Below are positions 3,373 through 62,710 of a stretch of 64,000 nucleotides of DNA, in pieces. Every line of letters starts with the position of its first letter. The stretch's first letter is position 1. The notes beneath the pieces are model-generated. The model was given only the letters and a program-made list of their open reading frames with translations. It searched no databases and had not been told where the DNA came from. The DNA is taken from positions 2,239,501 through 2,303,500 of the forward strand of contig NZ_CP150166.1 in assembly GCF_037963765.1 (NCBI RefSeq), in the 5' to 3' direction. Source of the DNA: Sporosarcina sp. FSL W8-0480 (GTDB taxonomy: Bacteria; Bacillota; Bacilli; Bacillales_A; Planococcaceae). The translations under genes and the position numbers were made by a program.

Positions 3373-3840
3373 TTATTTTACCGTAATTGTAGTACTCATA
3401 AATTGATGCCCGGCACCGCAATATTCGTTACATAAGACGAGATACTCACCCGGCTTATCAAATTTTTGGGTTGCTCGTTGTATATGCCCTGGCATAACCA
3501 TTGCATTTAAGTTCGTATCAACAACTTGGAATCCGTGAACGACGTCCTTCGATGTCATAACGAATGTAACCGTTGACCCTGCCGGAATCTCAATCTTTCC
3601 TGGATTGAAATTAAATACTTCAAGAGTCATAACGACTTCATATTCATTTTCACCTGTTTTGAAAACACCCGGATTATCGAAAGGTGCTGTTTGATCTACT
3701 TTTTGCGGATCGATTGTTTCTTTATTACTTGGTGGCCCCATGCCTAATGCGAATGTTTGGTAGCCCGTTATAAGCATGAATATCACAAGCATACCTCCAC
3801 TAAGTGCCAACCAAATCTCTTCGTACCGATTCATTTTCAT
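3373..3840 (-). CDS. cbaB: ba3-type cytochrome c oxidase subunit II (CuA)
   Basis: A 155-residue subunit with one N-terminal membrane helix and an external cupredoxin domain that takes electrons from cytochrome c. The CuA site is intact: the histidine in VVHGFQVV near residue 102, then C-x3-C-x3-H-x2-M in CNEYCGAGHQFM near residues 137-148. The ATG at 3840 is preferred over an in-frame GTG one codon earlier because AAGGAGG lies seven bases before it. It is short compared with A-type subunit II proteins and lacks a heme c domain, as is usual for ba3 enzymes. Co-transcribed with subunits IIa and I. Confidence 0.94.
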   Translation of the reverse strand: MKMNRYEEIWLALSGGMLVIFMLITGYQTFALGMGPPSNKETIDPQKVDQTAPFDNPGVFKTGENEYEVVMTLEVFNFNPGKIEIPAGSTVTFVMTSKDVVHGFQVVDTNLNAMVMPGHIQRATQKFDKPGEYLVLCNEYCGAGHQFMSTTITVK

Positions 3841-53781: not shown

Positions 53782-54765
53782 TTAAAATTCTGCTAATTCA
53801 CGCGCTGCTTTTTCAACTTTATCCGGGTTGACCATGAAGAACTTCTCCATTGTAGGAGCATATGGCATAGCCGGAACATCAGGTCCCGCAAGACGTTTGA
53901 TAGGTGCATCAAGGTCAAATAGGCAGTTTTCTGCGATTATCGCTGAAACTTCACTCATTACGCTTCCTTCAAGGTTGTCTTCAGTAACTAACAATACTTT
54001 ACCTGTTTTTGAAGCTGCTTCAATGATAGATTCTTTATCAAGTGGATAAATTGTACGTAAGTCTAAAATATGTGCAGAAATTCCATCTTCAGCAAGTCTT
54101 TCAGCTGCTTGCAATGCAAAATGTACACATAGTCCGTAAGTAATGATTGTAATATCATCACCCTCACGCTTCACATCGGCCTTTCCGATTGGCAAAACGT
54201 ATTCCTCTTCAGGAACTTCGCCTTTGATCAATCGGTATGCACGCTTATGCTCAAAGAAAAGGACAGGATCATCATCCCTGATAGCAGCTTTCAATAGACC
54301 TTTAGCGTCGTAAGGAGTGGAAGGAATTACAATTTTCAATCCCGGTGTACTTGCAAACATGGACTCGACTGATTGGGAATGGTATAACGCACCATGAATT
54401 CCACCACCAAATGGCGCGCGGATAACAATCGGACAAGACCAATCATTGTTTGAACGGTAACGGATTTTCGCTGCTTCTGAAACAATCTGGTTCACTGCAG
54501 GCATGATGAAATCCGCGAATTGCATTTCTGCAATTGGACGCATTCCGTACATCGCTGCTCCGATTCCAACACCAGCAATTGCAGATTCAGCAAGTGGTGT
54601 ATCAAGTGCACGGTATTCACCGAATTGGTCATAAAGGCCAGTTGTCGCTTTAAATACGCCACCCTTTCTACCAACGTCCTCTCCAAGTACGAAGACGTTT
54701 TCATCCCGTTCCATTTCTTCCTTCATCGCAAGTGTAATCGCGTCAATATATGAAAGTACAGCCAT
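53782..54765 (-). CDS. bkdAB: Branched-chain keto-acid dehydrogenase E1 beta
   Basis: A 327-residue thiamine diphosphate enzyme subunit. Typical elements: VLGEDVGRKGGVFKAT, TPLAESAIAGVGIGAA, RAPFGGGIHGALYHSQ and the C-terminal LDLRTIYPLD. It overlaps the E1 alpha stop by one base, so the E1 heterotetramer subunits are translationally coupled. Confidence 0.96.
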   Translation of the reverse strand: MAVLSYIDAITLAMKEEMERDENVFVLGEDVGRKGGVFKATTGLYDQFGEYRALDTPLAESAIAGVGIGAAMYGMRPIAEMQFADFIMPAVNQIVSEAAKIRYRSNNDWSCPIVIRAPFGGGIHGALYHSQSVESMFASTPGLKIVIPSTPYDAKGLLKAAIRDDDPVLFFEHKRAYRLIKGEVPEEEYVLPIGKADVKREGDDITIITYGLCVHFALQAAERLAEDGISAHILDLRTIYPLDKESIIEAASKTGKVLLVTEDNLEGSVMSEVSAIIAENCLFDLDAPIKRLAGPDVPAMPYAPTMEKFFMVNPDKVEKAARELAEF

Positions 54766-55772
54766 TATTGGTCTCCCCCTTCCTCTTTATAGACATGGCG
54801 AAGTGCATATTCCGGTTCAGCGTAAGGTGCTTTCTCCGCATAGTCAGTCGCCTCATTCACAATCGCCTTAATGCGATCGTCCATTTCTTTTTCAAGTGAA
54901 TCATCCAAGACACCAACTTCTTTCAAATAAGCTGCGAATTTAGGAATTGGATCGTTTTTCCGTTCTGCCTCAAGTTCCTCAGCATCACGGTATAGACGAT
55001 GGTCATCGTCTGATGAGTGCGCAGTCAAACGGTAACAAACTGCTTCAACAAGGCTTGGTCCTTCCCCACTACGTGCACGATCTGCAGCTTCCTTCACGAC
55101 ACGGTAGACTTCAAGTGGGTCTGTACCGTCAACCGTTACTCCAGGCATGCCGTATCCAACTGCACGATCTGAAACGTTCTCACAAGCAAGTTGCTTTTCA
55201 AGCGGTACTGAAATTGCATATTTATTATTTTCAACCATTATGACAGTCGGTAATTTATGAACTCCAGCAAAGTTCATCCCTTCGTGGAAGTCCCCTTGGT
55301 TGGATGAACCTTCTCCTAATGTGACAAATGTGATGAAGTCTTCATTTTTCATTTTAGCCGCAAGTGCAACTCCGACTGCATGCGGAAGTTGTGTTGTAAC
55401 AGGGGAAGATCCTGTTAAGATGCGATTTTTACGTTGTCCGAAGTGACCTGGCATTTGACGACCGCCGGAGTTTGGATCTTCGGCTTTAGCGAATGCCGAT
55501 AGCATTAGTTCTTTTGGTGTCATTCCGAAATGGAGGACGACACCCATGTCACGGTAGTATGGGGCAATCCAGTCTTTGTTCTTGTCAAGTGCGTATGCTG
55601 CTCCGGCTTGTGCGGCTTCTTGGCCTTGGCAGGAGATGACGAATGGAATTTTTCCGGCACGATTTAATAGCCACATGCGTTCGTCCAAACGTCTAGCCAT
55701 TACCATTGTTTCGTAGATTTCTAGAACATTTTCGTTCGTCAATCCTAATTCTTCATGACGCGTTTTCGCCAT
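54765..55772 (-). CDS. bkdAA: Branched-chain keto-acid dehydrogenase E1 alpha
   Basis: A 335-residue ThDP-binding subunit. The GDG-type cofactor motif is altered to LGEGSSNQGDFHEGMNFA, as in other Bacillus BkdAA; the phosphorylation-loop equivalent is RLTAHSSDDDHRLYRD. The ATG at 55772 follows GAAGGGGAT; the frame open to 55856 runs into the repeat element upstream and is not used. A 200-base gap with a palindromic repeat separates it from lpdV. Confidence 0.95.
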   Translation of the reverse strand: MAKTRHEELGLTNENVLEIYETMVMARRLDERMWLLNRAGKIPFVISCQGQEAAQAGAAYALDKNKDWIAPYYRDMGVVLHFGMTPKELMLSAFAKAEDPNSGGRQMPGHFGQRKNRILTGSSPVTTQLPHAVGVALAAKMKNEDFITFVTLGEGSSNQGDFHEGMNFAGVHKLPTVIMVENNKYAISVPLEKQLACENVSDRAVGYGMPGVTVDGTDPLEVYRVVKEAADRARSGEGPSLVEAVCYRLTAHSSDDDHRLYRDAEELEAERKNDPIPKFAAYLKEVGVLDDSLEKEMDDRIKAIVNEATDYAEKAPYAEPEYALRHVYKEEGGDQ

Positions 55773-55818
55773 TTTATGAATCCCCCTTCGTTTCGGTTGA
55801 TATAATTGGAAATTAACA

Positions 55819-55947
55819 GTTGCTTTACGTTTCAGGCGGACGCTTTCCGCGGGCATGGCTTCAGCCTCCTCACTACGCTACGCTTCGTTGCGGGGTCTTC
55901 AGCTCATGCTATTCCCGCAGGAGTCGCCGCCTTCCACTTCAAGCAAC
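55819..55947. repeat. Palindromic repeat element, copy B, inside the bkd operon
   Basis: The 129-bp element has the same ends as copy A: GTTGCTT (55819-55825) and AAGCAAC (55941-55947), an inner GGCGGACG/GTCGCCGCC pair, and the same body marker GCTTTCCGCGGGCATGGCTT. The centre contains CTTCAGCC with inverse partners near TCTTCAGCTCATGC and a local CACTACGC-GCGTTGC-like hairpin. It sits between lpdV and bkdAA. Confidence 0.8.
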
Positions 55948-55971
55948 GGAAATAATAAGGAACATAGAAAT

Positions 55972-57399
55972 TTACATATGAATTGCTTTTCCATCGACTG
56001 CGAGTGATGCTTCGCCCATTACTTCGGAAAGGGATGGGTGCGGGTGGATGGTTGATGCTACTTCCCATGGAGTGGCGTCAAGGACCATCGCGAGGCCTGC
56101 TTCGGAAATTAAATCTGTTACGTGTGCTCCGATCATGTGGATCCCTAATAGGTCGTCGGTATCTTTGTCGGCGATTATTTTTACGAATCCGTCCGCGTTA
56201 CCGTTAACGAGTGCTTTGCCGATTGCTGCGAATGGGAATTTACCGACCTTTACATTGAACCCTTGCTCTTTTGCTTGTGCTTCAGTCAACCCGACACTCG
56301 CCGCTTCAGGGCTTGAATAGATACAACGTGAAATGTTTGTATAATTGATAGGTTCCGGTGAAAGTCCAGCTATATGTTCAACTGCAGCGATCCCTTCGTG
56401 TGATGCTACATGTGCCAATTGAAGTCCGCCGATTGCATCGCCAATTGCATAGATATGGCTTTCTTTCGTTTGGAATGTCGATTTTGTTTGTATGTAGCCT
56501 TTGTCTAACTGGATTTCTGTGTTCTCGATACCGATTCCTTCTGTATTGGCCTGTCTTCCCACGGATACAAGCATTTTCTCAGCTGTAAACTCTTCCGTTT
56601 CACCAGCAATTTCAGCTGAAATGGTAACTGCTTCTTCTGTTTTCTTGAGTGTTTCAGGCAATACTTTTGCACCTGTGATTAAAGTGACTCCTCTTTTCGA
56701 AAGAAGCTTTTTCATTTCTTTTGAAATGTCTTCGTCTTCGGTCGGTATGATTCTGTCAGCATATTCAATCACCGTGACCTCAACTCCAAAGTCATTTAAC
56801 ATGGAAGCCCATTCGATACCGATGACTCCGCCGCCGACGATTAGCATCGACTTCGGTAATTCGGTCATTCTTAATGCACCGTCTGAAGAAAGTACTTGGA
56901 TTTCATCTAGTTCAAGTCCCGGCAATGTTCGGGGTCTTGATCCGGTAGCTAAAATAAGGTTTTTTAAGATAAGCATTTCATTTTCTTCACCGTTATTCAT
57001 TTCAACAGAAATGGTGCCAGGCATTGGAGAGAATATAGATGGCCCTAACATTCTGCCAAAACCTTCGTAGACATCTATTTTTCCTTTCTTCATCAAGGCA
57101 GTGACTCCTTTATGAAGCTGTTGGACGATTTCTTCTTTCCTTGCTTGTACTCGGGTAAAGTTCAGCGTAGCGCCGTCTGTGTCCACACCGAAATGTGCAG
57201 AATCCGTTTTAGCCATTTTGTATACTTCAGCGCTTTTCAGCAATGCTTTGCTTGGAATGCATCCTTTATGCAAGCAAGTTCCACCTAAAAGCTCCTTTTC
57301 AACTAAAGCTGTTTTAAGACCTAATTGTGCTGCGCGAATCGCTGCTACATATCCGCCCGTTCCGCCGCCTAAAATAACTACATCATATTCGACTGCCAT
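55972..57399 (-). CDS. lpdV: Dihydrolipoamide dehydrogenase E3 (LpdV)
   Basis: A 475-residue flavoprotein. The FAD motif is ILGGGTGGYVAAIRAAQLG, the redox disulfide is GGTCLHKGCIPSKALL, the NAD motif is IVGGGVIGIEWASML, and the C-terminal catalytic His-Glu is in TIHPHPSLSEVMGEA. It reoxidises the lipoyl groups of BkdB. A branched-chain-specific E3 within the bkd operon is usual in Bacillus. Confidence 0.95.
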   Translation of the reverse strand: MAVEYDVVILGGGTGGYVAAIRAAQLGLKTALVEKELLGGTCLHKGCIPSKALLKSAEVYKMAKTDSAHFGVDTDGATLNFTRVQARKEEIVQQLHKGVTALMKKGKIDVYEGFGRMLGPSIFSPMPGTISVEMNNGEENEMLILKNLILATGSRPRTLPGLELDEIQVLSSDGALRMTELPKSMLIVGGGVIGIEWASMLNDFGVEVTVIEYADRIIPTEDEDISKEMKKLLSKRGVTLITGAKVLPETLKKTEEAVTISAEIAGETEEFTAEKMLVSVGRQANTEGIGIENTEIQLDKGYIQTKSTFQTKESHIYAIGDAIGGLQLAHVASHEGIAAVEHIAGLSPEPINYTNISRCIYSSPEAASVGLTEAQAKEQGFNVKVGKFPFAAIGKALVNGNADGFVKIIADKDTDDLLGIHMIGAHVTDLISEAGLAMVLDATPWEVASTIHPHPSLSEVMGEASLAVDGKAIHM

Positions 57400-57427: not shown

Positions 57428-58516
57428 TCACGCGGGATAGGTTTTTGCTTTCTCCTCACCGTTCAAGACGCGTAAAGCACCTTCTGCAAGTGCTTGCAAT
57501 TCATCTTCACCGGGATAGACGACTACATCTGCAATCCATTGCACCCTGGAGTTTATCATTTCTACGTATTGTTTCCCGTACGCAAGGCCACCGGTAAGAA
57601 TTATGGCATCTACATTCCCTTCAAGGACAGTTGCGGCACTTCCAATTTCCTTTGCCACCTGATATGCCATTGCTTCATAGACAAGAGCTGCTTCTTCATC
57701 GCCTGCATCAATCCGTTTTTCTACAGTGACTGCATCATTTGTTCCAAGGTATCCGACGAGTCCGCCTTTGCCGACCAACTTGGACATGATTTCTGTTCTG
57801 AAATAAGTTCCTGAATAGCATAGATCGACTAAATCCCCAGTTGGAACAGTTCCCGCACGTTCCGGGCTAAATGGACCATCTCCGTGCAAGCCGTTATTGA
57901 CATCGATCACTCTTCCAAAACGATGTGCGCCAACAGTTATACCTCCACCCATATGGGTGACAATAAGGCGCAGGTCTTCATAACGTTTGCCTATTTCTTT
58001 GGCATATCGTCTTGCAACCGCTTTTTGATTCAATGCGTGAAAAATCGATTTTCGATTGATTAAAGAAAATCCTGAAATACGGGCGAGCGGATGCATTTCA
58101 TCAACGACTACTGGATCGACGATGAATGCCGGAATCTTAGTCGCACTAGCAATTTCGTCTGCTATGATGCCACCAAGATTTGATGCATGCTGTCCGGAAT
58201 AGCCCTTTTTCAAGTCTTCGATCATTCTTGCATTCACAGTATATGTTCCGCCCGCAATCGGACGGAGAAGTCCACCTCGACCGCAAACTGCATGCAGTTC
58301 ATCCAAGGCGACTCCTCCGCGTTCTAAAGATGCGATAATAGAATCTTTCCTGAAAACGTATTGATCGATGACTGAAGGATATTGTGCAAGTTCCTCTGCT
58401 GAATGTCTCAATGTGTCTTCAAATACAAGGTGCTCGTTATCGTACACACCGATTTTCGTTGATGTAGACCCTGGATTGATGACCAGGATTCTAAAGATAT
58501 CTTTATGCACGAACAT
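57428..58516 (-). CDS. buk: Butyrate kinase (branched-chain fatty acid kinase)
   Basis: A 362-residue acetokinase-family enzyme making ATP from acyl-phosphate: [15 protein letters not shown] at the N-terminus, [21 protein letters not shown], and [13 protein letters not shown]. With Ptb it converts isobutyryl-, isovaleryl- or methylbutyryl-CoA to free acid and ATP. Positioned between lpdV and bcd as in B. subtilis. Confidence 0.94.
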
Positions 58517-58546: not shown

Positions 58547-59644
58547 TTATTTTCTTCTTGAAAGAACGCTTTTTTCATTTTGCAAAAATTGGCTACGAGA
58601 TTTTGCAACCCTTGCAATTCTTTCTTCTGCAAGACGGTCTGCGGCTACGTAAGTTGGGATATTATCACGTTTTGAAATCGCGAAGATTTGTTCAATCGTA
58701 TCGTAAATTCCTGCAACTCGTTTCATCGCCCGTTCACGGTTATAGCCTGCAAGCTCATCAGCAACGTTGATAACACCGCCTGAGTTGATGACATAGTCTG
58801 GGGCGTAAACGATTCCCATTTCATGAATCATGTCGCCGTGTTCTGGATTTTTCAATTGATTGTTCGCAGAACCTGCGATTACTTTACATTTCAATTGTGG
58901 AATTGTTTCGTCATTGATGATCGCTCCAAGTGCACATGGTGCAAAAATATCCGCATCTTGTGAGTAGATCTCATCAGTTTCGACAGCAATTGCACCGAAC
59001 GCATCAACAGCTCGTTGTACGGCCTCTTTGTTGATATCCGTTACGATCAATTTCGCGCCTTCTTCATGAAGATACTCACAAAGTGTATAGGCAACGTTTC
59101 CAACACCTTGTACTGCAATCGTTTTGCCTTCAAGGGAATCACTTCCGAATGCTTCTTTTGCTGCAGCTTTCATTCCTTTATAGACGCCGTATGCTGTAAC
59201 TGGTGATGGATTTCCTGATGAACCGAATTCTGCGGAAACCCCTGTGACATAATCAGTTTCGAGGTGGATTAAATCCATATCTTCTTCAGTTGTACCAACA
59301 TCTTCGGCAGTAATATATCTACCATTTAAACCTTCAATAAAACGGCCAAACGCACGGAACATTTCATCATTTTTATCCGTTTTTGGATTTCCGATAATAA
59401 CTGTTTTTCCGCCTCCAAGATTCAATCCGGCTGCTGCGTTTTTATATGTCATACCTTTAGCAAGTCGTAGTGCATCTTCAATTGCTTCTTCTTCACTTGC
59501 GTATGTCCACATGCGAGTTCCACCTAATGCTGGTCCAAGTGTTGTGTCATGAATCGCGATGATTGCTTTAAGGCCGGATGTTTTATCCTGACAGATAACC
59601 AGTTGTTCATAATCGTGAGTTTCCATATATTTAAATAATTCCAT
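58547..59644 (-). CDS. bcd: Leucine dehydrogenase
   Basis: A 365-residue Glu/Leu/Phe/Val dehydrogenase that deaminates branched-chain amino acids to 2-keto acids with NAD. The catalytic Lys region is [18 protein letters not shown], and the NAD fold has [16 protein letters not shown]. It feeds the Bkd complex encoded downstream. RBS AAGGAGG. The C-terminus after VAKSRSQFL is variable, as usual. Confidence 0.95.
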
Positions 59645-59673: not shown

Positions 59674-60582
59674 TTATTTTTTTGAAGTCTGTATGGCTAG
59701 CGCCAATGAATACAACTTTGTTTCTGCACTATCAGATCTCGAAGTGAGAACGATCGGCGCTCTTGCACCTTGTATAATTCCACCGACTTTTGCATTGGCG
59801 AAATACATAAGTGATTTATATAGAATATTTCCTGCTTCTATCGACGGCACGACAAGGATATCCGCCTTCCCAGCCGTTACACTTGTGATTCCTTTATGTT
59901 GGGCCGATTTGATAGACACAGCATTATCTAAAGCAAGCGGGCCGTCGATAATGCAGTCTTTAATTTGCCCTCTATGATTCATAACAACCAGGTTTGCCGC
60001 ATCCGTCGTAGCTGCCATTACAGGATTGATAGTTTCAATCGCTGCGAGGGGTGCAACAATCGGTACATCAACTCCACAAGCTTTAGCAACTGCCACTGAA
60101 TTTTGGATGATTTGTGCTTTCTCTTCAAGGTTAGGAGCAATATTCATTCCCGCATCCGTGACAAATAGCAAACGGTTGTATCCTTCAACTTCAAAGGCTG
60201 CTACATGGGAAAGCACCTTTCCCGTTCGCAAGCCGTATTCAGAGTTCAAAACAGCTTTTAAGACGATTGCTGTCGGTAAATTCCCCTTCATCAGAACTTG
60301 TGCTTCACCGCTTGAAACGAAACGGACAGCTTTCTCGGCTGCTTCCTGAATAGTATCGGCATGCACGATAGAAATATAAGGGTTGCTCCGAAGTTCGGGA
60401 AAGCGTTCCTTAATAAGTTGCTCTAATATTCGTTCATTATCAATGAGTATAAAGGAGGCAATCCCTTTCATCATAGCCATCTCCACAGCTTGAAGCACTT
60501 CCGGGTCCGCTGCACAGGCTACTGCGACTGTCCGTGAACCCGACGCAGCGGTTTTTTCAACAAGTGATTTTAGTGTCGTCAT
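59674..60582 (-). CDS. ptb: Phosphate butyryltransferase
   Basis: A 302-residue phosphate acyltransferase exchanging CoA for phosphate on branched acyl-CoA. Marks: [41 protein letters not shown], and [18 protein letters not shown]. The start is only 15 bases after the bkdR stop (GGAGGAGGG in between), so ptb must be read from the bkdR transcript unless a promoter lies inside bkdR. Confidence 0.94.
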
Positions 60583-60597
60583 TTCAGCCCTCCTCCA

Positions 60598-62352
60598 TCA
60601 GATCAGTTTGAATTTCTCTAGTTTGTAATATAAGGAGCGCAACGAAATACCAAGACGATTTGCTGTCAATGATTTATTTCCATTATGCTCTTCAAGAGCT
60701 TTTTCAAGGACGGATCGTTCGTAATCGTCCATAACTGATGCAAGTGTACTCTTCTCGGGAAGAATCTCTTCAGTCGTTTTTACTTCACTCGTAAATAGGG
60801 ATCTTCTAATATCTTCTGCTTGAATTATCGAGGAACCAGGCCCTATGTAAATCATTGCTCGACTTAGGACATTTTCAAGCTCCCGAACGTTTCCTGGCCA
60901 TTCATATTGCTGCAATTTATTCATTGCTTCGCCTGATATTTCACCGACATTCATGCCAAATTCCTGATTTAATTTCTTCAGTAATTGAGCTGCTATTTCA
61001 GGAATATCTGCCTTCCTAGTTCGCAAGGAGGGAATTTGTATCGTAATACGGTTTAATGCATAGTACAAATCGACATTGAATGAACCTTCATGAATCGCTT
61101 TTTCTAAATTTTTGGATGTTGCTGCAATGATGCGTACCGGATTGAATTTTAGATGTTCATTCATTTGGGTAGGTCTTTGTTTCAAGTGTTCCAATAACCT
61201 AGACTGAACGCTTAACGGCAAGTCAGTCACTTCGTCAAGGAAAATACTTCCACTCATTGCTTCATCAAATAATCCCAATTTGACAGGTATCGAAGGATTT
61301 TGTTCAATTTCCCCAAATAATTCCCTTTCAATGACGGAAGGGTCAATCGCGGTGCAGTTCACGCGAATGAATTTAGAGGATTTTCTATTGCTCTCACTAT
61401 GAATTGCATTTGCAAAAAGCTCTTTTCCAGAGCCAGGTTCACCTCTTAATAAAACAGGTATATCCGATTTCGCTGCAATTTTCGCCTGGTCAATCGATAG
61501 ACGTATATCTGCGGAACTCCCGTGTATATCAGAAAATGTAAAAGTCGACTCTAATTTTCGAATGATTTGCTTCGCCCAATCAAGCTCTTTCATCAGATTA
61601 CGCATTTCTGTGATGTCATGGATGACACCGACACTGCCTTTCATCTGATTATTGACGATAATAGGCGCTACATTTACAATGACATCCCTATTATCTTCCC
61701 CTATTCGCATATTTACACCACGAATTGGTTTTTGTGTCTCCAACACTTTCATATGGATACTTTCACCCTCGTTTATATCGACGGTGGCAGGTTTTCCGAT
61801 TACTTCATCTTCAGACAATCCGGTGATTCTTGTGTACGCCCGATTGACAAGAACGCCATTACCTTTTTCATCTACGACCGAAATTGCGTCATCACTTGAT
61901 TGAATAATGGCTTCAAGCATCGTTTTTATAGATTTCAAGTCTGTAACTTCCTCAGCCAATTTAACGACTTCGGATACGTCTTTGAAAACCGCAAACGCAC
62001 CAAATGTTTCCCCATCTGATGAAATTAGTGGATAACGTGAGCTGATTATTGTTAAGCCATTCGGAAGAACCAATTCGTTATTCAGTTCGGCTTTTTTAGT
62101 ATCAAGAACTCTGACTAATTTACTGTCGGGAATGATCTCGAAAATCGATTTGCCAATTGTGTTGAAATCAGAAACTTCTAACATCCTGCAAGCGCTTTCA
62201 TTTATGAAGTCGACAATTCCTTTTTGATCAATCCCAATCATACCTTCATCAATTGAATTGATTATCATACGCTGCCTATCCATTTCCGTTCGAATCCTTC
62301 GAAAGAATTGTTCATTTGTTTTCAACAAGTCAATTAAAAGAACACTTTGCAA
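60598..62352 (-). CDS. bkdR: BkdR, sigma-54-activator-like regulator lacking GAFTGA
   Basis: A 584-residue regulator with two PAS domains (about 28-130 and 148-250), an AAA+ domain (about 272-500), and a Fis-type HTH (556-580). Walker A is GEPGSGKE (304-311) and Walker B is SIFLDEV (369-375). The L1 loop that should carry GAFTGA for sigma-54 contact reads ELFGEIEQNPSIPVKLGLF (344-362): the motif is gone. The usual DLFYRLN is DLYYALN, losing an Arg. In B. subtilis BkdR activates bkd with SigL. TTG start, AAGGAG 11 bases upstream. Here it is the first gene of the operon it should control. Confidence 0.9.
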   Translation of the reverse strand: MQSVLLIDLLKTNEQFFRRIRTEMDRQRMIINSIDEGMIGIDQKGIVDFINESACRMLEVSDFNTIGKSIFEIIPDSKLVRVLDTKKAELNNELVLPNGLTIISSRYPLISSDGETFGAFAVFKDVSEVVKLAEEVTDLKSIKTMLEAIIQSSDDAISVVDEKGNGVLVNRAYTRITGLSEDEVIGKPATVDINEGESIHMKVLETQKPIRGVNMRIGEDNRDVIVNVAPIIVNNQMKGSVGVIHDITEMRNLMKELDWAKQIIRKLESTFTFSDIHGSSADIRLSIDQAKIAAKSDIPVLLRGEPGSGKELFANAIHSESNRKSSKFIRVNCTAIDPSVIERELFGEIEQNPSIPVKLGLFDEAMSGSIFLDEVTDLPLSVQSRLLEHLKQRPTQMNEHLKFNPVRIIAATSKNLEKAIHEGSFNVDLYYALNRITIQIPSLRTRKADIPEIAAQLLKKLNQEFGMNVGEISGEAMNKLQQYEWPGNVRELENVLSRAMIYIGPGSSIIQAEDIRRSLFTSEVKTTEEILPEKSTLASVMDDYERSVLEKALEEHNGNKSLTANRLGISLRSLYYKLEKFKLI

Positions 62353-62404
62353 GGATATTCATTCTCCTTCTATGCACCATGCAATCTTTTGCAAATCTAT
62401 TTTC

Positions 62405-62433
62405 ATCATACACGATTGCACTGTTCTTGACAA
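62405..62433 (-). promoter_or_regulatory. Sigma-A promoter of the bkdR operon
   Basis: On the minus strand TTGTCA (62428-62433) and TATGAT (62405-62410) are 17 bases apart, about 53 bases before the bkdR TTG. Each hexamer matches the sigma-A consensus at five of six positions. Its -35 overlaps the -35 of the yqzF promoter on the other strand. Confidence 0.65.
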
Positions 62434-62454
62434 TCTTTGTTGAGAAGGTAAAAT
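62427..62454 (+). promoter_or_regulatory. Sigma-A promoter of yqzF
   Basis: TTGACA (62427-62432) and TAAAAT (62449-62454) are 16 bases apart, 25 bases before the yqzF start codon. The -35 shares five base pairs with the divergent bkdR promoter, so polymerase binding should be mutually exclusive. Confidence 0.65.
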
Positions 62455-62479: not shown

Positions 62480-62710
62480 ATGGCGCGTATGGCAGCTTTC
62501 ATCGTTCTTTTGATACCTATTTTAATAACGGCCGGTGGGATTAAATTGATGCGTGATTCACTTTTCGGCATTCTGTTTAGCCCATTTCCGTTCATTTGGC
62601 TTCAATTTATAGTTGGTTTGTTAATGTTCGGTGCAGGCCTTGCATTTTTTGCTGGTTTTCTTTTACGTCGAGATCGCCGTAAAGGTAGGGTTCAGCAGAG
62701 ATTCAAATAA
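62480..62710 (+). CDS. yqzF: DUF2627 membrane protein (YqzF-like)
   Basis: A 76-residue protein with two membrane helices (about 4-24 and 41-63), a short loop GIKLMRDSLFGILFSPFPFI, and a very basic tail (RRDRRKGRVQQRFK). The pattern and position beside bkdR and the glycerophosphodiesterase gene match B. subtilis yqzF. Function unknown. RBS TAAGGAG. Confidence 0.87.
   Translation: MARMAAFIVLLIPILITAGGIKLMRDSLFGILFSPFPFIWLQFIVGLLMFGAGLAFFAGFLLRRDRRKGRVQQRFK

Follow-up and report, generated by a model that had tools for sequence, protein, structure and literature searches.

Operon layout and the question raised by bkdR

What becomes of a sigma-54 activator, and of the operon behind it, when the motif for sigma-54 contact is gone? 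The question is raised by a bkdR gene in the window, by which is meant the whole 64,000-nucleotide stretch that was analysed. The gene encodes the switch protein of branched-chain amino-acid catabolism and stands first in the minus-strand order bkdR-ptb-bcd-buk-lpdV-bkdAA. Its product shares 48-82% identity with 14 family members, and the order bkdR-ptb-bcd-buk-lpdV is shared as well; sequence and gene order identify the ORF as the BkdR orthologue. The layout is as follows.

60598..62352, minus strand: bkdR, encoding a PAS-PAS-AAA+-Fis-type HTH regulator (584 codons, TTG start after AAGGAG)
60583..60597, minus strand: bkdR-ptb gap of 15 nt; in other genera this gap holds a -24/-12 promoter and, upstream of it, a pair of enhancer sites, both gone here
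59674..60582, minus strand: ptb (phosphate butyryltransferase), named from sequence and gene order
58547..59644, minus strand: bcd (branched-chain/leucine dehydrogenase)
57428..58516, minus strand: buk (butyrate kinase)
55972..57399, minus strand: lpdV (dihydrolipoyl dehydrogenase)
54765..55772, minus strand: bkdAA (E1 alpha), starting at MAKTRHEE

A preliminary description of this DNA had placed ptb 15 bases past bkdR with no -24/-12 promoter between them, and the gap is indeed of that length and holds no such element. The lpdV-bkdAA gap (55773-55971) is unusually long and contains GC-rich sequence, AAGGCGGCGACTCCTGCGGGAATAGC...GAGGAGGCTGAAGCCATGCCCGCGGAAAGCGTCC, resembling a dispersed repeat element of bacilli.

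BkdR retains its Walker motifs and lacks the sigma-54 contacts

Pfam matches in BkdR comprise two PAS regions, in agreement with the preliminary description, together with Sigma54_activat (139.8 bits), AAA_lid_14 and HTH_8. The relevant motifs are listed below.

61420..61443, minus strand: Walker A, GEPGSGKE (K310), with the Lys invariant in all clades
61231..61242, minus strand: Walker B, FLDE (D373, E374), invariant in all clades
61282..61317, minus strand: L1 loop, EIEQNPSIPVKL, the expected place of GAFTGA, read from sequence and alignment
61051..61080, minus strand: arginine-finger segment, FNVDLYYALN, with both Arg (FRED, YYRLN) gone, 0/48 in the genus
60607..60735, minus strand: C-terminal Fis-type HTH region (HTH_8)

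The AAA+ domain had been described as keeping Walker A and Walker B intact, lacking GAFTGA after ELFG and having DLFYRLN changed to DLYYALN, and all three points were borne out. After ELFG the protein reads EIEQNPSIPVKLGLF, in which GAFTGA is absent, and when BkdR is aligned by HMMER to NifA, ZraR, DmpR and an NtrC-family protein, the gap falls precisely on L1, the sigma-54-contacting loop. The third change goes further than had been described: FRED-LYYRLN has become FNVDLYYALN, and the arginine-finger positions (PspF R162/R168) are occupied by N426 and A432. Among 48 sequences of the genus, the Walker A Lys and Walker B Asp-Glu are kept in 48/48 and the arginine fingers in 0/48, with L1 varying in length by up to 14 residues. 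Every genus member examined shows the same loop loss, with differing loop lengths (14-28 aligned residues), which rules out a sequencing error or a frameshift as its origin. The AAA+/HTH half was modelled with AlphaFold (mean pLDDT 89), and the model resembles the AAA+ structures of enhancer-binding proteins (EBPs), namely the NtrC1, ZraR, FleQ and VpsR folds, so the EBP fold is predicted to be retained despite the deletion or disruption of L1. Among the hallmarks of a sigma-54-dependent EBP, only Walker A and B are found; GAFTGA, the arginine fingers, the -24/-12 promoter and rpoN are all absent. The N-terminal ~90 residues of most BkdR orthologues, a GxGxxG segment for which there was no Pfam match, are cleanly deleted in the window and in genomes G171 and G224.

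Pairwise dN/dS of BkdR within the genus is about 0.04-0.09; therefore, bkdR is maintained under purifying selection. The ratio of amino-acid divergence in AAA+ (loop excluded) to that in the lid-HTH part is 0.11-0.13 in the GAFTGA-containing genera g15 and g19, 0.30-0.40 in g12, g13 and g5, 0.75 in g14 and 1.15-1.36 in g1, g2 and g4. Three far-apart Bacillaceae sequences gave 0.46. Judged from these ratios, the AAA+ domain of the window's BkdR has lost its extra constraint, and the kind of constraint has changed.

Sigma-54 is not found in the genome

The genome is a single contig of 3.25 Mb, rated 98.4% complete. The search for rpoN/sigL suggested in the preliminary description yielded no match over cut-off: profile searches returned none at all for the sigma-54 DNA-binding family PF04552, and the sole match to the core-binding family PF04963 was a sub-cut-off one to a 195-aa ORF. 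Counterparts of this ORF are also present in genomes that have a true sigma-54. Weak matches to PF04552/PF04963 (E ~1e-4) were considered as divergent sigma-54 and rejected, since those to PF04963 are ORFs of 195-208 aa that occur alongside a real sigma-54 as well, and sigma-54 is therefore treated as absent. A degenerate codon pattern for GAFTGA had 0 matches across the genome. The sole other EBP-like protein is RocR, adjoining rocA-rocD-rocG.

L228:6006-7382 (own genome C1, about 1556505-1557881), minus strand: RocR, without GAFTGA and with a degenerate Walker B (LFCERID)

RocR relatives were found in 65/68 genomes of the genus, and all those with a readable aligned loop are without GAFTGA and have a degenerate Walker B. 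No -24/-12 element was found near the rocA/RocR locus. RocR and BkdR, the two EBP-like proteins left in this genome, have both departed from sigma-54. The distribution of sigma-54 in the genus is patchy, and across the family rpoN occurs in many unrelated neighbourhoods (L229-L271), for example beside hut or proline-racemase/hydroxyproline genes; it looks like an accessory gene. A good match to a -24/-12 element, TGGCATAACCATTGCA, lies at window position 3490 (plus strand) in this genome without sigma-54, and is a relic or due to chance.

A conserved promoter and palindrome precede bkdR

The region upstream of bkdR contains the following elements.

62405..62433, minus strand: sigma-A-type promoter TTGTCA-N17-TATGAT of the bkdR-ptb-... 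operon, with 10/12 consensus matches and conserved in the genus
62380..62393, minus strand: palindrome TGCAAAAGATTGCA, the putative BkdR operator, 11 nt past the -10
62427..62454, plus strand: divergent promoter TTGACA-N16-TAAAAT of a small membrane-protein gene starting at 62480, overlapping the bkdR -35

Consensus scans for promoters and terminators are alone at chance level, the shuffled mean being equal to the number found in this region. Despite this, the sigma-A-like promoter that had been proposed upstream of bkdR is taken as real because its -35 and 17-nt spacing are identical in 50/50 readable loci of the genus, with TTGTCA-N17-TATGAT exact in 46 and near in 4. The earlier claim of one bkdR-ptb-... 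operon behind this promoter is supported. The bkdR and divergent promoters (62405-62454) overlap at a shared TTGTCAA/TTGACAA -35.

A perfect TGCAA-N4-TTGCA was found 10-11 nt past the -10 in 49/50 loci of the genus. Assuming a transcription start 6-8 nt past the -10, this site lies at about +4 to +18, which, being downstream of the -10, is a repressor position. Most of the other genera examined, g15 excepted, have this promoter and palindrome or a close variant of the pair ahead of bkdR, as does a GAFSGA-bearing Bacillus; the arrangement is therefore ancestral and probably autoregulatory. The autoregulated operon of the preliminary description is likely on account of this conserved palindrome, with repression as its presumed form. 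Seven exact TGCAA-N4-TTGCA sites exist in the genome, and 62380-62393 is the only intergenic one; the other six are inside genes, and a wider BkdR regulon drawn from them was rejected on that ground. Two palindromes in buk (57485-57498 and 57530-57543) were considered as internal operators in 20 genomes and discarded, the first tracking the codons for the conserved LQALAEGA peptide and the second not being conserved. At 62348-62361, the conserved and rare TTG start of bkdR belongs to a TTGCA half-site, which in g4 and g14 makes up one half of a second palindrome, 31 bp away from the first. Operator function may thus be what preserves this odd start codon.

GAFTGA and the -24/-12 promoter were lost together

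The family series comprises 90 BkdR loci, and 87 orthologues entered the count of GAFTGA losses. This comparison, also suggested in the preliminary description, confirmed a clade-wide absence: GAFTGA is confined to genera g15, g19 and part of g12, and no examined member of the window's genus carries it. On the BkdR tree this corresponds to about 4 losses if loss is irreversible (unrooted parsimony minimum 3), which would lie at the base of g1+g2+g4+g14 (the window's clade), in g13+g5 and twice in g12. BkdR without GAFTGA is universal in the window's genus, also where sigma-54 exists, and occurs in 42 genomes that have sigma-54. On the strength of these 42 genomes, we reject the simple view that GAFTGA disappeared from the window's clade because sigma-54 was lost; its disappearance there long predates today's patchy distribution of sigma-54. 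Such a cause fits the small g12 group G073/G075/G076 only, in which GAFTGA loss accompanies sigma-54 loss, the loop reads GAFVGA or DAFAGA and the -24 has decayed to AAGGTAC. The order of loop and sigma-54 events may differ between lineages.

In 8/8 family loci with GAFTGA and 1/76 without it, bkdR is followed by a -24/-12 element (Fisher p 2e-10, uncorrected for relatedness), and thus loop and promoter changed together. Outgroup BkdRs from Bacillaceae have GAFSGA/GAFTGA, with TGGCAC/T-N5-TTGCA (-24/-12) after bkdR. Additional palindromes, presumed to be the enhancer, lie just past the bkdR stop in g12, g13, g5 and g19, and in 2/3 in g15; those in g1, g2, g4 and g14 are gone. In g13/g5, tandem palindromes 21 bp apart remain upstream of the old -12 position, and in g13 an extended -10-like TGTTTTAAT stands in place of the old -12.

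Sister genomes without bkdR keep the promoter

Sixteen genomes of the genus had no BkdR match, and bcd is kept in all of them. In 15 of the 16 (L272-L283, L285-L287), what was once the bkdR promoter, as TTGTCA-N17-TACGAT or TAGGAT, is found directly before bcd-lpdV, and most of these 15 also have a second candidate promoter, TTGCAT-N17-TARAAT. The palindrome was found in 0/15. As the 15 genomes probably represent a single evolutionary event, the Fisher value of 8e-14 overstates the evidence. The promoter outlives bkdR and the palindrome does not, which fits a BkdR operator at a promoter where BkdR is not an obligatory activator.

A proposed mechanism and its alternatives

The independence of BkdR from sigma-54 is strongly supported, there being no sigma-54 gene, no GAFTGA and no -24/-12 element. 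Beyond this, we consider BkdR to be, with fair probability, a repressor of the single sigma-A-transcribed operon in which it lies, derived from a former sigma-54 activator and no longer working through sigma-54. The sigma-54 promoter between bkdR and ptb, with its pair of enhancer sites, would have disappeared by deletion along with the GAFTGA loop in the ancestor of the clade to which the window belongs, and sigma-A RNA polymerase would now transcribe the whole catabolic operon from what had been the promoter of bkdR (TTGTCA-N17-TATGAT). BkdR would bind TGCAA-N4-TTGCA just past the start site and most likely repress the operon, and hence bkdR too, until released by ATP state or by a ligand sensed by the PAS domains, which are the likely sensors. 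The AAA+ ring would be kept for nucleotide binding or oligomerisation, and might bind ATP without hydrolysing it efficiently. The motif pattern is compatible with binding without hydrolysis, and the absence of the two arginine fingers speaks against efficient hydrolysis in trans. However, Walker motifs kept in 48/48 sequences suggest that nucleotide matters in a way that simple repression does not explain. TyrR-type proteins are capable of both repression and activation. More tentatively, across the whole clade a sigma-54 activator may have become a repressor that binds ATP without hydrolysing it and acts on its own operon at a sigma-A promoter, and in a second lineage a sigma-A activator on the retained enhancer.

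The preliminary description had instead inferred that BkdR acts on sigma-A polymerase, as TyrR and some NtrC variants do. Read as activation at the bkdR promoter, this would be the manner of TyrR, R. capsulatus NtrC or VpsR. There are reports of GAFTGA-less EBPs that work at sigma-70 promoters, certain of them dependent on the binding but not the hydrolysis of ATP (PMC3162934; PMC10274813), and in the independent lineage g13/g5 the tandem palindromes stay upstream of the extended -10-like sequence seen in g13. Moreover, the 15 bkdR-less genomes probably amount to one event and most have the second candidate promoter, so activation may have preceded the loss of bkdR. Yet the sole conserved site in the window's genus is downstream of the -10 with no upstream site left, 15 genomes keep the promoter though they have no BkdR, and a -35 and -10 this near to consensus leave little need for an activator. 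With the site at about +4 to +18, a promoter that outlives bkdR and no upstream enhancer pair, activation is unlikely here and that claim is probably wrong for the clade. For the independent lineage g13/g5, in which upstream tandem sites survive, activation from a sigma-A promoter is more likely than here, and plausible.

Three further readings are less probable still. A functionless BkdR on its way out, with a constitutive operon, would account for the relaxed AAA+ domain, the lost arginine fingers and N-terminal segment and the frame broken in G224, but is made improbable by a dN/dS of about 0.04-0.09, Walker residues kept in 48/48 and an operator conserved in 49/50. The palindrome could belong to another regulator, with BkdR acting elsewhere, as the site of a Fis-type HTH is not readable from sequence alone; this is rather more doubtful given that tandem copies occupy the enhancer position after bkdR in genera keeping the sigma-54 promoter, and that the palindrome adjoins bkdR family-wide and in a Bacillus and vanishes along with it. 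Least probable, and scarcely credible, is a sigma-54 missed on a plasmid or in an assembly gap, which BkdR would use through a divergent loop. Its patchy occurrence in the genus and a completeness below 100% leave some room for this, against which stand a one-contig genome with no DNA-binding or core-binding match over cut-off, an operon with no -24/-12 element and a BkdR that is GAFTGA-less throughout the genus even where sigma-54 exists. Autorepression at the sigma-A promoter is thus the reading that we prefer.

Significance and comparison with known systems

EBPs without GAFTGA have hitherto been known mostly as single odd proteobacterial proteins. Here, in about 90 orthologues of one family, the loop, arginine fingers, enhancer and promoter change together, with about 4 losses and with intermediates (GAFVGA, DAFAGA, and -24 to AAGGTAC), and the series includes a control clade lacking both regulator and palindrome. 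The long-standing question of how an operon leaves obligatory sigma-54 control yet stays regulated, and which step comes first, is made directly testable. Should both the repressor outcome and the g13/g5 activator outcome hold, every stage of the passage from sigma-54 to sigma-A control would be found among living species. A genome with a BkdR or RocR annotated as 'sigma-54-dependent' may hold no sigma-54 at all. Among open-licence papers, none was found on GAFTGA-less BkdR or on sigma-54 loss in the family.

The closest known systems are the BkdRs of B. subtilis and B. thuringiensis, which likewise have the bkd operon after bkdR, two PAS regions with AAA+ and a Fis HTH, and a sigma-54-independent bkdR promoter (PMC4428206, PMC4941409). 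They differ in having GAFSGA/GAFTGA and a -24/-12 promoter at ptb (TTGGCACGGTATTTGCT in B. thuringiensis, of which BkdR is an experimentally supported sigma-54 activator; PMC4428206), whereas the window's BkdR has neither the loop nor the arginine fingers, and the -24/-12 promoter, its enhancer and sigma-54 are missing too. A documented case of an EBP gene under negative autoregulation is that of B. thuringiensis SoxR (PMC4941409). Francke et al. 2011 list TyrR, DhaR, HupR, VpsR and YplP as GAFTGA-defective, sigma-54-independent EBP descendants (PMC3162934). TyrR, DhaR, VpsR and PhhR resemble the window's BkdR in this altered GAFTGA and independence (PMC3162934), but belong to a different operon and clade. 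NCBIfam scores of BkdR are 365 bits for PrdR, then 252 for DhaR and 235 for TyrR, and orthology with any of these was rejected as the scores are far below the curated cut-offs of 551, 576 and 795 (576 for TyrR). YplP of B. subtilis and RocR of the genus are also Gram-positive EBP-like proteins without GAFTGA; however, YplP is a different protein (PMC3162934), and RocR has lost the Walker B that BkdR keeps. The well-studied cases of loop deletion are the NtrC proteins of Caulobacter and Rhodobacter capsulatus, which share an L1 deletion in an NtrC-type AAA+ protein and work at sigma-70 promoters, ATP binding rather than hydrolysis being reported to matter in R. capsulatus (PMC10274813). Unlike BkdR, which is of the PAS type, they are alphaproteobacterial response regulators; the window's BkdR has in addition lost its arginine fingers, and its promoter switch can be traced across species.
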